Positions 24,927 through 25,702 of a DNA stretch of 64,000 nucleotides are shown in pieces; positions within the stretch are counted from its first letter, which is position 1, and each line of letters begins with the position of its first letter. The stretch is from contig JAKLJL010000003.1 in NCBI GenBank assembly GCA_023151185.1, forward strand, positions 296,930 through 360,929, read 5' to 3'. The notes beneath the pieces were generated by a model. It worked only from the letters and a program-made list of their open reading frames with translations, made no database searches and was not told the DNA's origin. This stretch comes from Bacteroidota bacterium (GTDB lineage: Bacteria > Bacteroidota > JABWAT01). The position numbers and the translations under genes are program-made.

Positions 24927-25062
24927 CTCATTTTTTAGCTGTGGTGATACGAACCGGGACCCGGTGAACCCTTTCTGTTTCCTGCCCGTCCGGATTATAT
25001 TTTATTTAGTCCTGAAAGTTCCCTTCTGGGGTTAGGTTTCTAAAGGAAGGGCAATAAAAAAA

Positions 25063-25327
25063 CCAGTCGGTTGACTGGCTTTTTGCGGAAAAGGGGGGAT
25101 TCCCCAAGACCCGCAAAGCGGGCCGACGGGTCCGGGCCAGTCTTTAGACGGCCTTGGAGAACCCCCGATACCCTGACGGGTATACCAGTTTTCGAGACCG
25201 TCGCATTCAACCCCTCTGCCACTTTTCCATGTAGTTTACCTTTAGAATTCAAATTTCAGAACAAATTTCTCGGCGGTAAAGTGGGAGATTCTCCATGACT
25301 GATCAGTTGACGGAAGCAATAAAAAAG
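25063..25327 (-). repeat. Tandem 265-bp unit A (tRNA-Ser-like gene + terminator hairpin + spacer)
   Basis: ccagtcggttgactgg marker at 25063, 25328 and 25593: two exact 265-bp periods. Confidence 0.95.
25086..25228 (-). pseudogene. tRNA-Ser(CGA)-like gene copy A interrupted in the T-loop by a 56-nt insertion (25103-25158)
   Basis: Acceptor, D-arm, CGA anticodon loop and variable arm recognisable; ggggattc|56 nt|gaaccccc versus ggggattcgaaccccc in copy C; T>G-type change in the D-loop and weakened anticodon stem. Functional status unknown. Confidence 0.8.
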
Positions 25328-25592
25328 CCAGTCGGTTGACTGGCTTTTTGCGGAAAAGGGGGGATTCCCCAAGACCCGCAAAGCGGGCCGACGGGTCCGG
25401 GCCAGTCTTTATACGGCCTTGGAGAACCCCCGATACCCTGACGGGTATACCAGTTTTCGAGACCGTCGCATTCAACCACTCTGCCACTTTTCCCTGTGGT
25501 TTACCTTTAGAATTTAAATTTCAGAGCAAATTTCTCGGCGGTAAAGTGGGAGATTCCCCATGACTGATCAGTTGACGGAGGCAATAAAAAAG
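25328..25592 (-). repeat. Tandem 265-bp unit B (tRNA-Ser-like gene + terminator hairpin + spacer)
   Basis: Same marker spacing; near-identical to unit A including the 56-nt insertion. Confidence 0.95.
25351..25493 (-). pseudogene. tRNA-Ser(CGA)-like gene copy B interrupted in the T-loop by a 56-nt insertion (25368-25423)
   Basis: Same insertion point; insert differs from copy A by gtctttatacgg versus gtctttagacgg. Confidence 0.8.
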
Positions 25593-25614
25593 CCAGTCGG
25601 TTGACTGGCTTTTT
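25584..25614 (-). terminator. Intrinsic terminator downstream of tRNA-Ser copy C
   Basis: Minus strand: aaaaGCCAGTCaaccGACTGGCtttttt; equivalents at about 25054-25085 and 25319-25349. Confidence 0.8.
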
Positions 25615-25615
25615 G

Positions 25616-25702
25616 CGGAAAAGGGGGGATTCGAACCCCCGATACCCTGACGGGTATAACGGTTTTCGAGACCGTCGCATTCAACCACTCTGCCACTTTT
25701 CC
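25616..25702 (-). tRNA. tRNA-Ser(CGA), intact copy C
   Basis: Reverse complement GGAAAAGTGGCAGAGTGGTTGAATGCGACGGTCTCGAAAACCGTTATACCCGTCAGGGTATCGGGGGTTCGAATCCCCCCTTTTCC+G: full cloverleaf, long variable arm, CGA anticodon, G discriminator, CCA not encoded. Confidence 0.96.

Follow-up and report, generated by a model that had tools for sequence, protein, structure and literature searches.

The tRNA-Ser(CGA) locus of the 64-kb window (the whole stretch of DNA that was analysed) was resolved into three units on the minus strand, i.e. one intact gene and two interrupted copies spaced 265 bp, which agrees with the array described in the sequence-only reading. The intact tRNA-Ser(CGA) gene is located at 25616-25702 and was called by ARAGORN and by Rfam (RF00005, 62.2 bits), and sequence comparison placed the interrupted copies at 25351-25493 (copy B) and 25086-25228 (copy A), each composed of a 70-nt 5′ part of the tRNA, a 56-nt insert and a 17-nt 3′ part. 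When the tRNA calling proposed in the earlier reading was carried out on the three copies, A and B were recognised as tRNA by neither ARAGORN nor Rfam. The inserts are double hairpins on the minus strand (25368-25423 in B, 25103-25158 in A), identified by their junctions and by covariance model R1 with 88.8 bits (E 1.7e-23) and 89.2 bits (E 1.3e-23), respectively, both being training sequences of the model. In both copies the insertion is exact, between TTC and GAA (C56 and G57) of the T-loop as had been read, and the junction is unambiguous: GGGGGTTC / TCCAAGG...CTTGGG / GAATCCCCC. All three units have their own terminator-like hairpin on the minus strand, again in line with the first reading, at 25586-25614 3′ of the intact tRNA (GCCAGTCAACCGACTGGC and then a T run), at 25321-25349 3′ of copy B, and at 25057-25084 3′ of copy A, where one stem base is altered.

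Comparison of the 265-bp units A and B gave an identity of 257/265. Relative to the intact copy, the substitutions C42T and T44G, which the sequence-only reading does not mention, are common to A and B, and A has the additional substitution T16G; judged from its sequence, the anticodon stem of A and B is damaged by C42T and T44G. Tandem amplification after the insertion, as suggested in the sequence-only reading, is still plausible for A and B.

The insert was also searched for with the covariance model in related genomes, another of the checks proposed at the outset, and three copies were found in the host genome (G000) and four in another species of the same genus (G001). Chance match and assembly artefact are ruled out as explanations of the array, because the insert family recurs in these two genomes. 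The third insert of G000 is on a different contig (C3), where it adjoins an intact tRNA-Ser(GGA), and of the four inserts of G001 two are beside tRNA-Ser(CGA), one beside Ser(GGA) and one beside Ser(GCU). All seven inserts lie in the T-loops of tRNA-Ser copies adjoining an intact gene, and the model matches in G000 and G001 comprised exactly these seven, together with weaker reverse-strand shadows of some. Outside the genus, no true insert match was obtained with the covariance model in 41 relatives and 399 genomes of the phylum, two sets that overlap. A lone weak extra match in G229 had no nearby tRNA and was taken as chance, and the same applies to the Streptomyces, Ornithinimicrobium, Leptospirillum and Arthrobacter loci which, besides G001, were all that a pattern scan of an 85,488-species collection returned, none of them with any tRNA.

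The seven Ser inserts have a common fold, in which an outer helix (UUCUCCAA/UUGGGGAA) extends the T-stem, followed by hairpin P2, the conserved CGGACCCGUC and hairpin P3. The two adjacent hairpins P2 and P3 are present in 7/7 inserts, with covariation. Across the seven inserts 93.5% of the pair cells were formed, falling to 34-58% when the partners were slid, and six pairs had changed on both sides (shuffled mean 3.3; as high in 3/500 shuffles), figures that are support rather than proof of the structure because the seven sequences are related to each other and also served to derive the structure. In most predicted folds the insert and the T-stem make up a single near-unbroken helix, and a bulge-helix-bulge is absent from the predicted folds. 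Rfam intron families gave no match in the window at gathering score or in an E-value search of four loci. The interrupted Ser(CGA) copies of G001 have a broken T-stem. The sequence-only reading had considered young pseudo-tRNAs made by a small mobile element; the pseudo-tRNAs and the small mobile element are close to the evidence, and it is their youth that is doubtful, since the arrangement is carried by two species and the inserts have diverged via compensatory changes.

At Ser(GGA) in G000 and G001, and at Ser(GCU) in G001, an ORF for a GIY-YIG nuclease is situated between the intact tRNA and the broken copy, starting after the terminator of the intact tRNA and ending before the insert. The products are 81-82 residues long, the three proteins match PF01541 with E-values of 1.6e-15 to 1.6e-13, and by sequence the solved structure nearest to them is that of the UPF0213 protein 1ywl (E 2.8e-6). 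On the 3′ side of the ORF follow the variable-arm and T-arm part of the tRNA only, the insert, the tRNA 3′ end and a terminator, and because the broken copy is thus a 3′ tRNA part only, removal of the insert could not yield a tRNA at these Ser(GGA) and Ser(GCU) loci. In G000, the Ser(GGA) unit has a further nuclease gene, truncated, on its 3′ side. The nuclease search of the host genome gave no GIY-YIG match inside the 64-kb window, and searches of plasmids and phages gave no closely related nuclease at E ≤ 1e-5.

A third member of the genus, G002, has a single intact Ser(CGA) gene without insert, and its 3′ flank matches that in G001. With the first copy of G001, which is interrupted, the gene of G002 has in common a 9-bp 5′ leader (AACAACCCC) and the 5′ part of the tRNA, and with the last copy of G001, which is intact, it has the 3′ flank in common. 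The first and last G001 copies start 392 bp (2 x 196 bp) from each other. The locus is without a nuclease gene in both genomes, and the long shared flank is on the 3′ side only, the 5′ flanks being divergent; the two loci also differ by a 1-bp indel. Insertion into the T-loop of a unit carrying a tRNA piece and the hairpin would fit this comparison of G001 with G002, the one empty-site case, and tandem duplication followed by hairpin insertion would fit it too.

With the Ser-linked nuclease as query, matches were obtained in 122/300 phylum genomes, and 91 loci were examined, comprising the best matches of the searches and 40 stretches picked down the list. A tRNA called by ARAGORN was located at most 300 bp from the nuclease gene in 78/91 loci, on the same strand in all 78, the loci not being independent, the query stemming from a Ser-linked nuclease gene, and the counts being slightly inflated by a small number of overlapping loci (L069 and L087 in G034). 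With about 40-50 tRNA genes in a genome of 3-5 Mb, such adjacency is expected by chance in approximately 1 percent of cases. Among the other 13 loci most contain tRNA fragments, one has the nuclease gene directly after tmRNA, and two have it beside RNase P RNA. In the nuclease tree (91 sequences), which is based on a short alignment and has many weak forks, the tRNA isotype changes 21 times, against a mean of 43 for shuffled labels (as low in 0/200). The Met, Asn, Leu and Ser nuclease clades comprise several taxonomic families each. Site-specific homing with occasional retargeting would give a pattern of this kind.

In L147 (and L149) the inverted repeat CCCCGCACATAACATTTAA ... TTAAATGTTATGTGCGGGG encloses the nuclease gene, which directly adjoins RNase P RNA and is placed as if in the loop of an rnpB stem. 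In L121, L122 and L125 three GIY-YIG genes are repeated in tandem every 306-323 bp, a broken tRNA-Ser piece being part of each unit, and one intact tRNA adjoins the array.

Broken copies at the surveyed loci were found by aligning each intact tRNA to its flanks, and their inserts were mostly in loops. The clean insert cases (n = 49) included 17 exactly at C56^R57 and 16 in the D-arm, the rest being in the anticodon and variable regions, and 37/49 inserts had a folding z below -2 compared to shuffles. A recurrent 22-nt insert, e.g. TGCCAAAGGCA TCCCTTCGGGA, was observed at T-loop, anticodon-arm and D-loop sites in several families; two small hairpins are possible in the 22-nt inserts, and several of them fold better as one longer hairpin. 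In L086 and L110, two or three inserts occupy different loops of one broken copy. The element layout is found in its shortest form at the tmRNA locus L101 (1451-1809), where the intact end AATTTCGGACGCGGGTTC GACTCCCGCCACCTCCAC is followed by the nuclease gene and then by AATTTCGGACGCGGGTTC, a 20-nt hairpin and GACTCCCGCCACCTCCAC, i.e. the T-arm is duplicated and its second copy has a 20-nt double hairpin at C56^G57.

The 95-nt tRNA-Lys(TTT) called by ARAGORN in L089 (1122-1216) is in fact a copy of tRNA-Val that is broken and has hairpins in both the anticodon arm and the T arm, and copies like this may be misleading for genome annotation. At the tRNA-Ala(GGC) loci L078 (G002) and L091 (G001), the copy beside the GIY-YIG gene has a 33-nt T-loop insert at C56^G57, and in the same copies a hairpin replaces the anticodon arm. 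The idea that these Ala inserts are a reversed Ser insert gained no consistent support, as the covariance model gave no match and the alignment was better than shuffles for only one of the two. Palindromes of the form TCCCGA-N(3-8)-TCGGGA occur genome-wide, with 112 in G001, 81 in G002, 28 in G018 and 17 in G000 (0-3 for the reversed control pattern), and similar palindromes are in place of the anticodon arms in broken tRNA copies of L091 and L096.

The interpretation we prefer, with a probability of roughly 0.6, is that the Ser(CGA) array represents the nuclease-less form of a GIY-YIG homing element that invades genes for tRNAs and other structured RNAs in Bacteroidota. In the full form, the RNA gene that is intact is followed on its own strand by a small GIY-YIG gene with a single domain and then by a second copy, in many cases partial, with the double hairpin in a loop, and the mirror order of intact gene, nuclease gene and broken copy was also found. 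The genomes themselves show this architecture and that it recurs, the exact point of insertion, the kept pairing of the hairpins and the association of nuclease clades with tRNA isotypes. In the proposed mechanism, the nuclease would recognise, in the DNA of the RNA gene, the surroundings of a conserved loop (for Ser, the T-arm, GGTTC^GAATC) and would cut or nick uninterrupted alleles, after which recombination would copy the element in. The element would carry its own piece of the RNA gene, by which one functional gene would be rebuilt, and the hairpin at the target site of the sacrificed copy would make that copy uncuttable, like the intron in collaborative homing. The Ser(CGA) array would formerly have had a nuclease gene, or it may be served in trans, e.g. 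by the tRNA-Ser(GGA)-linked nuclease of G000.

The main weakness of the homing explanation is that the intact neighbour keeps the supposed target and should be cut, its survival being unaccounted for. The Ser(CGA) arrays of the window and of G001, which are without a nuclease gene, also count against it, as do the two or three inserts per copy in L086 and L110, which are unfitting for one insertion per element. As a wider and more tentative proposal, at somewhat under even odds, the loci may belong to an unrecognised class of bacterial mobile elements, in which isotype-specific GIY-YIG nucleases are directed at loops of the genes for tRNA, tmRNA and RNase P RNA. The double hairpin would be left or brought along where the cut is made, and an additional intact gene copy would take the place of splicing. 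The nuclease may possibly read the cruciform shape of the gene beyond its sequence alone.

Among the other explanations, the one that survives best, albeit as an unlikely one, separates the two components: the hairpin would be an independently mobile double-hairpin element favouring the loops of structured RNAs, and the GIY-YIG gene a free-standing homing gene that has the same targets or supplies the break in trans. Hairpin-only arrays exist, i.e. the Ser(CGA) array of the window and L040, one copy can hold several hairpins in different loops, and alike 22-nt hairpins are found at T-, anticodon- and D-loops, all of which speak for such independence, as do the comparable double-hairpin elements of fungal mitochondria (PMC10085805). 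It is less easily reconciled with the Ser insert family, which among the genomes searched is in tRNA-Ser T-loops only, and with the adjacency of nuclease and tRNA genes, which is very tight and isotype-specific.

Ordinary decay, by which tandem duplication would have produced spare tRNA copies and the inserts would be neutral scars or dispersed palindromes in unselected copies, appears improbable. The damaging substitutions in the broken copies and the TCCCGA-N-TCGGGA palindromes scattered in these genomes are as decay would have them, but the C56^R57 site recurs exactly in unrelated tRNAs and in tmRNA, compensatory changes keep the pairing, and the nuclease gene is on the same strand. An RNA-level system, with a GIY-YIG protein acting on tRNA and hairpin-bearing copies serving as its decoys or inhibitors, is highly improbable: many broken copies are mere fragments, nuclease-less arrays exist, and the GIY-YIG homing and repair enzymes known to us act on DNA, which together outweigh the loop placement that leaves the stems foldable and the location of broken copy and nuclease gene on one strand. 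The removable or tolerated T-loop intron of the sequence-only reading, i.e. an insert spliced or excised from the transcript to give an extra functional tRNA-Ser, can virtually be dismissed. In its favour, the insert is structured and its excision at the junctions would restore an almost intact tRNA in A and B, but the same insert is in Ser(GGA) and Ser(GCU) copies without the tRNA 5′ half, the T-stem is broken in G001 and the anticodon stem damaged in A and B, an intact gene stands beside each copy, and the near-unbroken insert/T-stem helix has neither a bulge-helix-bulge nor an Rfam intron match.

The endonuclease ORF element in Allomyces atp6 and the integrative elements at tRNA 3′ ends bring a copy with which the invaded gene is rebuilt. 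As in these, a replacement gene piece has apparently been brought to the Bacteroidota loci and the displaced piece left; the differences are that no integrase was seen here and that the target is an RNA-gene loop marked by a double hairpin. Free-standing GIY-YIG homing endonuclease genes and collaborative homing have been described (PMC10448857, PMC3984707), and similarly to these a small nuclease gene is found beside a conserved target, with an insertion on the proposed target site. Nuclease gene and insertion would spread together, as in collaborative homing, whereas in the present loci a double hairpin replaces the self-splicing intron, the cleavage site and the cutting are putative, function would be kept by a spare intact gene with no splicing, and the setting is the genes for tRNA, tmRNA and RNase P RNA in bacterial chromosomes. 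The group I introns known from bacterial tRNA genes (PMC3984707) are likewise insertions in a tRNA loop, some with a homing nuclease; the Ser insert differs from them by having no ribozyme core or Rfam intron match, by its position outside the anticodon loop, and by the intact gene alongside. Fungal mitochondrial DNA has double-hairpin elements (DHEs; Paquin et al. 2000, as cited by PMC10085805), which are also short two-hairpin inserts, some within structured-RNA genes, and potentially mobile. The likeness is one of description, and the Bacteroidota inserts differ in being bacterial, linked to a GIY-YIG gene and to duplicated RNA genes, and in a broken copy beside an intact one. No earlier description of GIY-YIG/hairpin tRNA elements was found in the literature searched, mostly outside subscription journals, and a prior report is possible.

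If true, the homing explanation would account for a class of tRNA genes that look split or unusually long in a major phylum of bacteria, and would suggest a role for many small GIY-YIG genes. A homing element could then inhabit essential RNA genes without an intron, by means of a spare intact copy, and the fungal mitochondrial double-hairpin inserts would have a bacterial counterpart, in which nuclease-driven mobility would be testable.
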